Below are positions 38,825 to 55,065 of a DNA stretch of 64,000 bases, in pieces. The stretch is taken from positions 186,001 to 250,000 of IMG/VR virus record IMGVR_UViG_3300036766_000194; one strand, 5' to 3'. Positions within the stretch are counted from its first letter, which is position 1. Every line of letters begins with the position of its first letter. A model generated the notes under the pieces. It did not search any database and had not been told where the DNA came from. It worked only from the letters and a program-made list of their open reading frames with translations. The translations under genes were made by a program, and so were the position numbers. This stretch comes from a virus.

Positions 38825-38917
38825 TCATCTTGGTATATGGATACACAAAATCTCTTTGATGGAACTACGAACTAGATACCTTGTGAGCTTTGTTTTAGAG
38901 GGAATAATTTCTATCAT
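38825..38917 (-). CDS. 30-residue ORF coupled to NAMPT
   Basis: ATG 38917 overlaps the TGA stop of the NAMPT gene as ATGA. The product is basic (MIEIIPSKTKLTRYLVRSSI...) and stops at TGA; five more codons follow in frame before TAA. The size makes it doubtful. Confidence 0.3.
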   Translation of the reverse strand: MIEIIPSKTKLTRYLVRSSIKEILCIHIPR

Positions 38918-40308
38918 ATTTTAGCCAACTCCCTAATTTCGTCTAGGGTCTGAATACGCTTCATCTCCCCGTTGCGGAAGACCAGTTCAAGTTGGTCAAA
39001 AGGAACACCATTACCATAAGTATCCGGAATTGTAACCCAATGACCTCCTAGTTGCTTGAGAAGAGCCAGACGACCACCCTTGCTGGCCTTGCCTTTATCG
39101 GTGACTGGATCCTTGCTAACCGGGGTATCTACTCCGTCAATAACCGCATTACAAAGTTTAATGGCAACCTTCTGAGTATCACGATTGACCTTTTGAAGCA
39201 GACCGCCTCCCATGCCATTGACTATGTTTTCAGTGCTCCAGTGAAAGTTCCTAATAGCACAAAGAAGTCCCTGAATAGAATATAGGTCCATACCATCTCC
39301 CCAGAGTGTACCAATACAAGGGGCGAGAACTTTATAGGACTTGGAATTTTCACGAAATCCAAAACACTCCCCAAAGATGTCGAACAACTGGGGAACTTGG
39401 GTAATAGGATCACCTGAGTCGGGACGGGCTACAACTTTTCCCTCTCGATTACGGATAATATCCCGATATTGATGACCAAGGATTTCCTTACAGAAATTGA
39501 AGATGTTGTAGGAATCCCCCACGAGACTAATGATTCCCTTGGGATACTTTCTTAATGCCGCGCCAACTTGTTCCGCTTCTCCATTACGGCCCTTGATAGT
39601 AAACATGGAGTGCTCTGTGGCAGGAACGCTATACCCAGAAACTCGGGGGGCACCATAGTACTGATGGAGATAATCCATGGCAATTTTAGTATCGGTGCCT
39701 AGAAAATTAATCAAATGGGCCGCACCGCCGCGAGCCGCCGCCTGAGTTCCCGTAGCCCCTCTAAATCCAAAGTCATGAAGTTGAAAGGGGAGCGCCGACA
39801 GGTCATCTGCGGTTTCTAGCAAAAACCGATGATAAATTTCCTTTGCCATGCGGCTCTTTGTAGCAACTGCGGTTGTATACCAGACATGTTGAAGAACGGT
39901 TTCCGCCCATTGACCAATCCAAGGTACCCGCTTATCTGTGGATTTAATGGTGTAAAGAACATTGCCGACAGGAACGACGCTGCCTTCCTTAACGGCTCGA
40001 ATTTCCATTGGTAGACGTCCGTTGTAGGTATCTAGGATATACTTCCAGTCGTCGTAATGGTAGGGAAAACCTGCGCCAAAATGCTGCTGGGAGTTCTCAT
40101 ACTCTTCATTCAGATCGTCCAGAGTAAAGAATTCACCCTCGAATTCCTCCATTAAAATTCCCTGTAACCCGAAGAATTCCGTGTACGGATACTCTCCTCC
40201 GCGAGCTTCAAAATACGATAGAAGTTCCGTAATCTCTGGTCCGTAGAAATGTGTATCTTTGTAGCTATCCGCTTTACGAAGAGGATTGGGTTTAAACGGA
40301 GTGGGCAT
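38914..40308 (-). CDS. nampt: Nicotinamide phosphoribosyltransferase
   Basis: The product has 464 residues, the length of known NAMPT. The enzyme makes nicotinamide mononucleotide from nicotinamide and PRPP, the first step of NAD salvage. Key parts are intact: the N-terminal DSYK.TH, the substrate-binding LHDFGFRG (Asp179), the catalytic His233 in SVPATEHSM, and the PRPP-binding ARPDSGDP at 294-301, then GTLWGDGMD and NGMGGGLLQ. GGAGAAAAC precedes the ATG. Known phage NAMPTs restore NAD during infection, including after host NAD-depleting defences. No adenylyltransferase partner is seen within the window. Confidence 0.95.
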   Translation of the reverse strand: MPTPFKPNPLRKADSYKDTHFYGPEITELLSYFEARGGEYPYTEFFGLQGILMEEFEGEFFTLDDLNEEYENSQQHFGAGFPYHYDDWKYILDTYNGRLPMEIRAVKEGSVVPVGNVLYTIKSTDKRVPWIGQWAETVLQHVWYTTAVATKSRMAKEIYHRFLLETADDLSALPFQLHDFGFRGATGTQAAARGGAAHLINFLGTDTKIAMDYLHQYYGAPRVSGYSVPATEHSMFTIKGRNGEAEQVGAALRKYPKGIISLVGDSYNIFNFCKEILGHQYRDIIRNREGKVVARPDSGDPITQVPQLFDIFGECFGFRENSKSYKVLAPCIGTLWGDGMDLYSIQGLLCAIRNFHWSTENIVNGMGGGLLQKVNRDTQKVAIKLCNAVIDGVDTPVSKDPVTDKGKASKGGRLALLKQLGGHWVTIPDTYGNGVPFDQLELVFRNGEMKRIQTLDEIRELAKI

Positions 40309-48257: not shown

Positions 48258-48292
48258 GGTTAAAGAAGTTACATGTTGTTTTATCTAAAACA

Positions 48293-48322
48293 AAAAGGTC
48301 CTAGATTTCTCTAGGACCTTTT
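48293..48322. terminator. Strong terminator after the tmRNA
   Basis: AAAAGGTCCTAG and CTAGGACCTTTT form a 12-bp stem with a short loop. On the minus strand a T-run follows. It ends the tmRNA transcript and could also stop plus-strand transcription. Confidence 0.85.
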
Positions 48323-48329
48323 CGTAGCC

Positions 48330-48705
48330 GTTATTTTATAGAGTGGACAAACTCCAGGCTGATGTTAAGCCGCCGCTGCCATCGCAAAGGTGGCTGTTGG
48401 CTGCATAGCAGCGAACGGCAGAACCTTGGATGTCATACGGGCAACAGTGTTTTTGACACTTATTGTCTGCGACCCGAATATCGTTCGGATTGCACCTACG
48501 GCGCGTAAGCAATTTCGATTCAGTCGGATCGGCGACTCCAGATCAGGCCCATAGAAAAACTTGGTGGACCTGCGGGGATTCGAACCCCGGTACGAAACGA
48601 CAACCAAAACGCCTTCTTCCCTTACGGGTATTTACGAGCGTCAATGTCTCAGCAACCAGACCGGGTAACGAACTTCTGTCCGGCACCAGTCGCTGTCTAT
48701 ATATT
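48330..48705 (-). ncRNA. ssrA: Circularly permuted tmRNA
   Basis: The minus strand reads T-arm (CGGGG-TTCGAAT-CCCCG, 48573-48589), 3' acceptor strand CAGGTCC (48566-48572) and ACCA (48562-48565). After an 11-base spacer comes GGGCCTG (48544-48550), which pairs with CAGGTCC over seven positions including one G-U. The sequence after it (GATCTGGAGTCGCCGA) resembles the start of ordinary tmRNA. The tag frame follows and ends ...TATFAMAAAA, stop 48365-48367, as in SsrA tags with an Ala-rich end. A strong terminator lies downstream. The acceptor piece thus precedes the coding piece, as in permuted ssrA genes. tmRNA rescues stalled ribosomes and tags products for degradation. The ends and the resume codon are approximate. 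Confidence 0.75.
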
Positions 48706-50378: not shown

Positions 50379-50540
50379 ACCAAGTTCCTCGAAAGTAGTG
50401 ACGGAACCGTCATCACCGACCCAACGAGTCGGCATACGACCAACAGAAGCAGCAACATATCCGTCGTTGCGACGCCAGACATAATAAACGTCAGCATCCC
50501 TGTCCATAGCTCCTTTGTGTAAAAACCAAGCCTTAGCCAT
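50304..50540 (-). CDS. Small protein with MAKAWFLHKGAMDRDAD start
   Basis: The product has 78 residues. It shares its first 17 residues with the 326-codon gene. It then has VYYVWRRNDGYVAASVGRMP and ends YRRILDENAARPYQAY. The 64-bp duplication displaced an older ending, still visible in another frame (ILDERAATPYQGDFE, stop 50234). It belongs to a family of short phage proteins with W.R.G and PDGSW-type elements. Function unknown. Confidence 0.6.
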   Translation of the reverse strand: MAKAWFLHKGAMDRDADVYYVWRRNDGYVAASVGRMPTRWVGDDGSVTTFEELGQYTDWNLAYRRILDENAARPYQAY

Positions 50541-50587
50541 TATTGACCTCTATAGTGGAGTGGAAATTAACTCAACTGAGGAAGAAT
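50491..50587. repeat. 97-bp direct repeat, copy 2
   Basis: Identical to 49862-49958. The plus-strand cassette starts directly after it. Confidence 0.9.
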
Positions 50588-50604
50588 TAAGTACTTATAC
50601 AATT

Positions 50605-51618
50605 ATGCAGATTCCTATTCCTCCTTCTGGAGTTATACCTAACCACATTTTTGAAACCTATTGGAATTTTGCCAGTGAGCGTCAACGTGTGTTTTGGAAA
50701 CGCAAGAATGGTGAACCAGGTCCTTGGAGTGAAGATCCTATTCTGCAAACCTATAAATTTACCAATACTTACCGGGTACTGGATAGAGTCAGCCAGTACC
50801 TATTGAGGAATATCATCGTCTATCCGGAGTGTAGCGATTTGGATTGTACAGTCCACTCTTCTCCTGAGAACACAATCTTCCGTATTATGTTCTTTAAGCT
50901 ATTCAATCGTCCAGAAACTTGGGAAATGCTCAGCAGTGAATTAGGCGAAGAACCCCATATAGATAATTTTAACTTTACCATCTACGATGAAACTCTTACA
51001 TCTGCTCAAGATCGTGGAGAGAAAATTTATTCCAACGCATACATGATGACAGCTGCGGGTAGTAACGGGGATCGTCGTCACCGGATGTATTTGCGATTGT
51101 ATGAAAAGATGTTTCATGAGGATAAAATCCAGGACAAGATTTTAGAAGCCACTTCACTAGAGGCTCTCTACAATCTTATCCGTACATATCGGACCATGGG
51201 ACCATTCCTCGCGATGCAGTACGCAATTGACCTCAATTATTCTCCGTTCGTAAATTTCTTAGAGACAGACTTCATCATAGCCGGACCGGGAGCTAGAAGA
51301 GGAATCCTAAAATGTTTTGATAGCATAGGAAACCACAATGAAGCTGATGTTATAAGATGGGTTCAAGAAACTCAAGATGAACAATTTATGTCGCGAGGGT
51401 TAGAATTTAAAAAGATAGGAAATCGTCCTCTACAGTTAATTGATTGCCAGTCGTTATTTTGTGAGGTGGATAAATTTACAAGAGCAAGTAACCCTGAAAT
51501 CCAGGTTGAGACAGGATCCGGGGATGCTCAAAAACGAGCAAGGATTAAACAGAACTTCAAGGAAAACAGTAATAAGATTGAGTATGTGTTTCCCTCCAAA
51601 TGGGGAGTTAAGATATGA
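50605..51618 (+). CDS. Alpha-glutamyl/putrescinyl thymine pyrophosphorylase-like protein
   Basis: The product has 337 residues from ATG 50605. It resembles the thymine-hypermodification family of DNA-glycosylase-fold proteins described by Iyer, Aravind and colleagues (RefSeq: nucleotide kinase domain-containing protein). Matching parts are FASERQRVFWKRKNGEPGPWSEDPI, YKFTNTYRVLDRV, FRIMFFKLFNRPETWEML, the HhH-like FIIAGPGARRGILKCF and PLQLIDCQSLFCEVDKF. In such phages 5-hydroxymethyluracil in DNA is activated and replaced by an amine-type group. The P-loop kinase two genes on supports the assignment. The frame runs 30 codons upstream to a TTG inside the repeat, so the start is not certain. Confidence 0.7.
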   Translation: MQIPIPPSGVIPNHIFETYWNFASERQRVFWKRKNGEPGPWSEDPILQTYKFTNTYRVLDRVSQYLLRNIIVYPECSDLDCTVHSSPENTIFRIMFFKLFNRPETWEMLSSELGEEPHIDNFNFTIYDETLTSAQDRGEKIYSNAYMMTAAGSNGDRRHRMYLRLYEKMFHEDKIQDKILEATSLEALYNLIRTYRTMGPFLAMQYAIDLNYSPFVNFLETDFIIAGPGARRGILKCFDSIGNHNEADVIRWVQETQDEQFMSRGLEFKKIGNRPLQLIDCQSLFCEVDKFTRASNPEIQVETGSGDAQKRARIKQNFKENSNKIEYVFPSKWGVKI

Positions 51619-53972: not shown

Positions 53973-54046
53973 TGGAACGCCCGACGAGACTTGTACCCGC
54001 AACCTTCCCTTTTGAAGAGGGCTGCTCTACATTGAGCTACGGGCGT
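53973..54046 (-). tRNA. tRNA-Trp-like with anticodon UCA (UGA reading)
   Basis: Acceptor ACGCCCG/CGGGCGT, D-stem GCTC/GAGC, anticodon arm GCCCT-CTTCAAA-AGGGA (outermost pair G-A), encoded CCA. Loop positions 34-36 are UCA, which would read UGA. The body resembles bacterial tRNA-Trp (start A, GTAGxTCAAT...TAGAGCA). The T-loop is the unusual TACAAGT and the T-stem has wobbles. Function as an opal suppressor is inferred. Confidence 0.75.
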
Positions 54047-54426: not shown

Positions 54427-55065
54427 CTAGAACGACAAAATCCAACTAAAAATTAAATTGACTCCAGGCGGTAGTAAAAGAGGGGGTAGGGTCTTATAAT
54501 TTATTAGAGTAACTGAATTAGGACTCGGTCCTCCCCCATATGAAATGTCAGCGGGGTTCCAATAAGGAGCCGTAAGCATGTTGGTGGGAGTCTGCTTAGA
54601 TCCTCCTCCAATTAAGCCCATTTCTCTTATTCCCACACCTGTGATGTTATCTGTGGTTGCGTTAACAAGTGTTTGAAAATCCACAAGATTGGTAAACTTT
54701 GTAACCGGAGTAAAATTTATATTGTCTGTGGTCGTAACGAAATTTACAGTACTAAGCTGCTTACGCAATACCTGAGCGATGAGAGCCGTCTGACCAGGGG
54801 TTTCTGTAGGCTGGGTATCAGGACTCCAGGTGGGATCTCCAGTTCCTAGAGCCAGTCCCCAAACCGCATAGAGACAATCGCTTGATAGAACATTCGGTCC
54901 CGAAATGAGAGCCGTATTGGGGAGGTTATTCGCCATGAGTCTAGCAAACAAACTCTTAACTGTGTTGACTATAACATTGGGACTCTGCCACAGAATTTCT
55001 CCCGTATCTTGACGAATGATACGCGGTAGCCCCTTTACAACTGTGTTTTCGACATGCTCTAGCAT
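54427..55065 (-). CDS. Baseplate/tail structural protein
   Basis: The product has 212 residues with GAGGAGC before the ATG. It is strand-rich with Asn/Thr/Pro loops: GEILWQSPNVIVNTVKSLFARL, then YAVWGLALGTGDPTWSPD, IREMGLIGGG and a strand-rich C-terminus. Phage proteins with N...ltnVGIREMGL... are fibre-joining or baseplate proteins; assignment is by context. It follows the Cys-rich protein closely. Confidence 0.55.
   Translation of the reverse strand: MLEHVENTVVKGLPRIIRQDTGEILWQSPNVIVNTVKSLFARLMANNLPNTALISGPNVLSSDCLYAVWGLALGTGDPTWSPDTQPTETPGQTALIAQVLRKQLSTVNFVTTTDNINFTPVTKFTNLVDFQTLVNATTDNITGVGIREMGLIGGGSKQTPTNMLTAPYWNPADISYGGGPSPNSVTLINYKTLPPLLLPPGVNLIFSWILSF

Follow-up and report, generated by a model that had tools for sequence, protein, structure and literature searches.

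Organization of the locus

Read 5′ to 3′ on the minus strand, the locus begins with a leader hairpin, followed by CGUAAG, a T-arm with a TTCGAAT loop, the sequence CAGGTCC-A-CCA, a short spacer and then GGGCCTG, beyond which lie a D-arm-like stretch, CTTACG, a reading frame ending in FAMAAAA-TAA, and a hairpin with a U-run (Table 1). The acceptor piece of the tRNA-like domain, made up of the 5′ strand of helix 2, the T-arm, the acceptor 3′ strand, A73 and CCA, is encoded upstream of the coding piece. The locus was studied within a window of 64 kb (positions 186001-250000) of a 299,875-bp IMG/VR record, which holds baseplate genes and roughly 46 tRNA genes. The phage origin of the window is certain, as it belongs to a virus record of this size with a baseplate of jumbo-myophage type, and some 112 of the ORFs have matches in Tunturiibacter phage Tunturi_5.

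Every element listed in the first-pass annotation, which had been made from the sequence alone, was found at this site, namely the upstream T-arm, acceptor 3′ strand and ACCA, the 11-base spacer (presumably excised from the precursor), the tag frame and the terminator-like hairpin. This last hairpin was not flagged by a simple terminator scan, and no sigma-70-like promoter was found upstream of the gene. In the minimum-energy fold, the hairpin preceding the acceptor piece could be either a 5′ leader or the 5′ part of that piece.

Table 1 Features of the permuted tmRNA locus and its syntenic anchor (window coordinates)
Feature	Position	Strand	Basis or remark
Permuted tmRNA core	48365..48626	-	Full-length RF04321 match, model positions 1-213
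ARAGORN tmRNA* call	48274-48654		Permuted; gives tag VKNTVARMTSKVLPFAAMQPTATFAMAAAA
3′ (acceptor) piece of tRNA-like domain	48562..48626	-	Sequence, alignment
Helix-2 5′ strand CGUAA, connecting both pieces	48622..48626	-	Perfect pairing with UUACG at 48508-48504
T-arm CGGGG-TTCGAAT-CCCCG (5-bp stem, TTCGAAT loop)	48573..48589	-	Sequence
Acceptor 3′ strand CAGGTCC	48572-48566	-	Sequence
A-CCA (A73 + CCA)	48565-48562	-	Sequence
11-nt intervening spacer AGTTTTTCTAT, between CCA and the 5′ end of GGGCCTG	48551..48561	-	Sequence
Acceptor-stem 5′ strand GGGCCTG, 5′ end of coding piece	48544..48550	-	7/7 pairing
D-loop TGGAGTCGCC, unlike the usual TTCGAC	48531..48540	-	Sequence comparison
Tag reading frame, GTC resume codon to TAA, 30 residues (VKNTVARMTSKVLPFAAMQPTATFAMAAAA)	48365..48457	-	ARAGORN, sequence
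Inner tag motif K-V-L-P-F	48413..48427	-	Recurs as KV[IL]xF in nine phages
Intrinsic terminator-like long perfect hairpin + U-run, 3′ of tag stop	48286..48325 (about)	-	Sequence, fold
Hairpin 5′ of acceptor piece	48650..48699	-	Minimum-energy fold
Syntenic anchor gene, virion/baseplate-associated protein	54427..55065	-	Homologues in four related phages

Covariance models and base pairing identify a two-piece tmRNA

The covariance model RF04321 (tmRNA_permuted; Rfam 15), which merges the alpha (RF01849), beta (RF01850) and cyano (RF01851) families, scored 51.6 bits at this locus in a search of the whole 64-kb window (E=3.4e-7; gathering cut-off 47 bits), and ARAGORN independently called a permuted tmRNA at the same place. 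The separate subtype models gave partial matches below their respective cut-offs (alpha_tmRNA 19.6 of 50 bits, cyano_tmRNA 35.1 of 70, beta_tmRNA 38.0 of 84), with beta_tmRNA the best of the three. The RNA folding z-score at the locus is -4.85. GGGCCTG pairs with CAGGTCC across the spacer at all seven positions, as the first reading had proposed, and G3:U70 is one of these pairs. When an ordinary 5′ acceptor half was sought, no 7/7 partner was found within 250 nt upstream; with RF04321 above its threshold, the locus thus does not reduce to a plain tRNA. Taken together, these data confirm that positions 48365-48626 on the minus strand constitute a phage-encoded circularly permuted (two-piece) tmRNA gene carrying its own tag.

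Covariation across 15 phage sequences bears this out. Pairing in the acceptor and T-stems amounts to 99.4%, compared with 47-68% in slid controls. Two-sided compensatory changes fill 36 cells, a value that none of 500 shuffles reached; the shuffles averaged 10.3. The T-stem is itself 100% paired, with compensatory changes. Position 3:70 is a U.G pair in all 15 sequences, and the window carries the alanine identity elements G3:U70 and A73-CCA. For helix 2, a perfect 5-bp Watson-Crick partner lies at nearly equal distance in 10 of the 15 phages, with differing sequences, in a comparison whose 5′ boundary was taken from the model fit and is therefore mildly circular. The helix covaries at corresponding places, being CGUAA/UUACG in the window and GCUAG/CUAGC in Tunturi_5.

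Such a gene could be mimicked by the 3′ end of an ordinary tRNA if a one-piece tmRNA, or a GGG sequence with no relation to it, happened to come next, and this arrangement did generate RF04321 matches in Acidobacteriota genomes (see below). Here, however, no tRNA overlaps the T-arm, there is neither an upstream acceptor partner nor a second tRNA-like 3′ half downstream, and four related phages carry permuted copies in synteny, so that the chance of an artefact is negligible. Searches for DNA similarity to the tmRNA returned only tRNA T-arm matches in annotated phages, and only T-arm similarity in plasmids.

The gene is an old resident of the Tunturi_5-like jumbo-phage lineage

The closest isolate is Tunturi_5 (PP885688; 308,711 bp), which infects a member of the Acidobacteriota. 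It is the one strong isolate relative found with the 1305-aa baseplate wedge protein (47% identity over 88%), and its major head protein is 69% identical to that of the window phage. The matching ORFs have a median identity of only 41%, and the head and baseplate modules are collinear. The window phage is thus a member of a Tunturi_5-like jumbo-phage lineage.

Tunturi_5 itself encodes a permuted tmRNA (PP885688.1:157899-158195, minus strand; 86.4 bits with RF04321; L196). This gene is unannotated in PP885688, a tmRNA is not mentioned in the paper describing the phage (PMC11924767), and ARAGORN misses the copy. The two genes are homologous, share their syntenic position and encode long tags; that of Tunturi_5 differs in having a canonical D-loop, a 36-nt spacer, a 34-residue tag and a higher score. 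Permuted tmRNAs were also identified in three IMG/VR relatives (G020, G022 and G034). In all five lineage phages the tmRNA lies downstream of the homologue of the anchor gene, within a few kilobases where this distance was measured, and from this five-way synteny we conclude that the permuted tmRNA has long resided in the lineage.

Of the copies compared, that of the window diverges most, and it scores lowest of the five syntenic genes (51.6 vs 59-86 bits). Its D-loop sequence GTCGCC was seen in this one copy among 122 viral permuted tmRNA-type sequences, 93 of which have TTCGAC. The low score and the unique D-loop suggest that the copy may be drifting, and among the 15 pairs of helix-2 type, three depart from standard pairing in the window. 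Taken further, the same two observations could mean that a gene functional in the relatives is decaying in the window phage and that its tag frame has fallen out of use; a GCA at 48470, which looks like a usual resume codon but stands in a different frame, would fit such decay. We regard this as unlikely, because the acceptor stem, T-stem, G3:U70 pair and first segment of helix 2 have all been preserved, and because the tag frame remains open and shows homology to that of Tunturi_5. The D-loop retains the UCG core (GUCGCC vs the usual UUCGAC, which is typical but not demanded by the model). The GCA, indicated by the model alignment, was rejected as resume codon in favour of GTC at 48457, since its frame has no Ala-rich end and an alignment with Tunturi_5 (A/V-K-N-S/T) supports GTC. 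We take the window copy to be probably functional, with the signs of drift noted above.

Acidobacteriota carry one-piece ssrA genes

The host genus of Tunturi_5 has a tmRNA of the other form. The tmRNA of Tunturiibacter lichenicola is one-piece with the tag AEPQFALAA (listed under its older name, Edaphobacter lichenicola M8UP30), and Granulicella, Terriglobus and others likewise have one-piece genes with similar short tags. A strong one-piece match was present in 115 of 150 Acidobacteriaceae genomes, many of the remainder being draft MAGs, and in the host loci examined the tags measured 8-10 residues, two spurious calls excepted.

Across 396 Acidobacteriota genomes no truly permuted ssrA was found. 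RF04321 matched in 11 of these (L346-L356), and all 11 matches were rejected as artefacts: in nine, a tRNA-Asp directly adjoins a one-piece tmRNA, while of the other two, one has the one-piece gene but no called tRNA, and one has the tRNA-Asp but no tmRNA called by ARAGORN. ARAGORN reported no permuted gene at any of the 11 loci. In the Acidobacteriaceae, one more locus called ‘permuted’ by ARAGORN was discarded as spurious, since the call overlaps with a gene of the one-piece form. RF04321 is therefore a trap for automatic annotation, being systematically false-positive, and above its cut-off, when a one-piece tmRNA follows a tRNA.

These data bear on the earlier suggestion that the host might be a permuted-ssrA bacterium, which finds no support given the one-piece gene of Tunturiibacter and the lack of permuted genes in its phylum. 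It could nevertheless be argued that the phage gene mirrors that of an alpha- or betaproteobacterial or cyanobacterial host from which it was recently acquired. Permuted genes are typical of these groups, beta_tmRNA is the best partial subtype match, and the host of the window phage is inferred from Tunturi_5, a relative 41% identical at the median. We nonetheless consider a recent acquisition of this kind improbable, as the host of the nearest isolate belongs to the Acidobacteriota and its ssrA is one-piece, the major head proteins of the two phages are 69% identical, and the synteny across five phages implies that the gene has long been resident in phages. In addition, a distant relative (G009; L061) encodes, at another locus, a one-piece tmRNA with the tag AEPQLALAA that is 75% identical to the Tunturiibacter gene; both gene forms are present within this one phage lineage. 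The known host group, with its one-piece ssrA, is not the source of the phage gene. The form of a phage tmRNA gene can thus be decoupled from that of its host, the two-piece form persisting in a divergent jumbo-phage lineage.

ARAGORN also identified unannotated permuted tmRNAs in three isolates, Acinetobacter phage BUCT628 (L395), Xanthomonas phage Rb1 (L396) and Stenotrophomonas phage DLP_6 (L397). The ssrA genes of Acinetobacter, Xanthomonas and Stenotrophomonas are one-piece, raising the possibility that a mismatch in gene form between phage and host may be general.

An extended tag with a conserved inner motif

The tag frame of the window gene has a resume-codon context and an Ala-rich end ahead of its stop. 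At 30 residues, the peptide is three times the usual length of about 10. The Tunturi_5 tag, read by hand, has 34 residues (AKNSPVVRGTAKVLSFARKFVPAVSSTRAFAMAA) and is homologous to it (AKNSPVVRGTAKVLSFARK...AFAMAA, with KVLSF as the inner motif). Most of the viral permuted tags that we collected have 9-16 residues, and nine of roughly ninety distinct tags have at least 23. Among the long tags are those of G026 (L016), a phage of the Tunturi_5-like lineage (ANTVVSFARKAKVLAFPAMRPVNAGTVGLAMAA), and of the unrelated phage G027 (ASANKTAKVIAFPASASMAFAAAA), and a motif-directed search added ASKQVARKAKVIAFPAKTVAMQIAA, ATSSVSAKTAKVLAFPARPAALQMAA, ATTRDSKKSAKVLAFPARTVALQMAA, VNTMLAKVIGFLKSLVPTFESFDTFAPAALAA and ATNRDSNKVIPFPMHMRPASEMALAA.

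The inner motif KV[LI]xF occurs in nine phages representing, by gene sharing, at least five unrelated backgrounds; since five of these nine tags came from the motif-directed search, its frequency is biased. As regards bacterial permuted tmRNAs, the motif screen was confined to Acidobacteriota. Within the five phages that share AKV[LI]AFPA, codon identity at positions 1, 2 and 3 is 0.90, 1.00 and 0.35, and in the tag comparison 103 of 187 codon pairs specifying the same residue use different codons. The flanking residues A, A, P and A are identical in all five of these tags while their third codon positions vary, and these flanks lay outside the search pattern, except that one scan fixed the second base of the P codon. 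The motif is thus conserved at the amino-acid level, a pattern characteristic of selection on the peptide. A requirement of RNA structure was rejected as its cause, the folding z-scores being inconsistent across the nine tag regions.

A tblastn search of isolate phages yielded no long tag. A search of the phage collection for clues to the hosts of G027 and G441, two unrelated phages with long tags, gave no match, and for G440 the only match was to a widespread recombination exonuclease family. We also observed a second group of long tags, starting A(E)K[TA][SN][TK]F, in the permuted phage tmRNAs L005, L175 and L411; the first two exceed the cut-off of the beta_tmRNA model, and L005 is adjoined by a tRNA with a CUA anticodon.

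Cyanobacterial tmRNA tags are exemplified by ANNIVPFARKAAPVAA. The [IV][VL]xFxRK pattern of such tags resembles KVLSFARK of Tunturi_5 and TVVSFARK of G026, although the score of the window gene with the cyano model, half its cut-off, lends the likeness no subtype support.

The conservation of the long tag suggests a function beyond that of the usual C-terminal LAA degron. The extended KV[LI]xF segment, which adds 15-25 residues, probably gives the tag a second recognition site, to be read by a protease, an adaptor or a chaperone. More tentatively, phages of bacteria with one-piece ssrA might keep two-piece tmRNAs, an A-K-V-[LI]-A-F-P-A tag class might have been passed among unrelated phages, and the inner motif might divert the fate of tagged proteins. 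Were this the case, a different protease, adaptor or chaperone would read the motif, and the phage would reprogram protein quality control. The Tunturi_5 protein gp106 (L378:32313-32888) is annotated as an HslV-family peptidase and has a weak homologue in G009 (L042); it was dismissed as a candidate tag protease, the window phage having no homologue.

Proposed mechanism

The most likely role of the RNA is ribosome rescue that depends on host SmpB and appends a phage-specific tag. A single precursor would be transcribed leftward and end at the hairpin. Host RNase P and 3′-processing nucleases would then cut out the spacer to give an acceptor RNA, bearing the T-arm and CCA, and a coding RNA; the two would stay joined through helix 2 and the 7-bp acceptor stem. 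The alanyl-tRNA synthetase of the host could charge the RNA via G3:U70, and host SmpB would be expected to deliver it to stalled ribosomes; no PF01668 (SmpB) match is present in the phage record. Translation is predicted to resume at GTC and add the tag, ending in AMAAAA, whereby the ribosome would be freed and the chain marked for proteolysis through its Ala-rich end. These steps, from processing and charging to resumption, tagging and proteolysis, are proposed by analogy with known two-piece tmRNAs. As a whole, an account in which a two-piece phage tmRNA, old in its lineage, rescues ribosomes with host SmpB and attaches a 30-residue tag seems to us likely to be correct.

Since the host has its own ssrA, a phage copy would be unneeded for basic rescue, and the RNA might instead act mainly as an inhibitor of host trans-translation that competes for SmpB rather than tagging. 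The CDS-less tmRNA of phage DS6A, for which such inhibition is reported, provides a precedent (PMC11915505). It would be hard, however, to reconcile such a role with a frame that keeps its resume context, stop and Ala-rich end in all relatives and a tag motif conserved at the protein level, and we judge it improbable. Because the phage gene is two-piece and the host gene one-piece, experiments can readily distinguish the phage RNA and its tag from those of the host. With an isolate at hand (Tunturi_5 on Tunturiibacter psychrotolerans X4BP1), the function of phage tmRNAs, a long-standing question, is directly testable.

Comparison with known systems

Phage-borne permuted tmRNAs are a known class, as the published gene of the methylophage Melnitz demonstrates. 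Of 18,146 phage genomes surveyed, 402 have a tmRNA, and 53 of the 133 unique structures are two-piece, nearly all of them aquatic (PMC9004378), which means that the first-pass statement that phage tmRNAs are usually unpermuted needs updating. The gene described here resembles the RF04321 type of two-piece tmRNA in gene order, acceptor/T-arm/D-arm fold, G3:U70, helix 2, tag frame and spacer position. It departs from the alpha, beta and cyano tmRNAs in its 30-residue KV[LI]xF tag (compared with about 10 residues), in its GTCGCC D-loop and in reaching no subtype cut-off. Like the two-piece ssrA genes of Melnitz and the pelagimyophages, it is phage-borne, permuted and of an origin that does not fit the host (PMC9004378). 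Whereas Melnitz is marine and has an alphaproteobacterial-type gene controlled by a glutamine riboswitch (PMC9004378), the present lineage consists of soil jumbo phages of Acidobacteriota with an extended tag and a host phylum with 0 of 396 genomes permuted.

As in those huge phages that carry tmRNA and SmpB, a component of trans-translation is encoded by a jumbo phage, but their SmpB has no counterpart in the record studied here; in its accessible portion, the report on huge phages contains no discussion of tmRNA gene form or tags (PMC7162821). The accessible part of the tmRNA database paper deals with very short tags and includes no long conserved class (PMC11915505). What is new here is the mismatch in gene form between phage and host together with the conserved extended tag, in soil jumbo phages.

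Other features of the phage genome

Elsewhere in the window, positions 50515-51618 encode a 5-hmdU DNA kinase (HMUDK_hel), which suggests that the DNA of the phage carries hypermodified thymine, and a nicotinamide phosphoribosyltransferase is encoded at 38914-40308 on the minus strand. A tRNA with a UCA anticodon at 53973-54046 is called as SeC yet has only 74 nt, and a tRNA with a UUA anticodon is present elsewhere in the phage record; both are possible stop-codon suppressor tRNAs.
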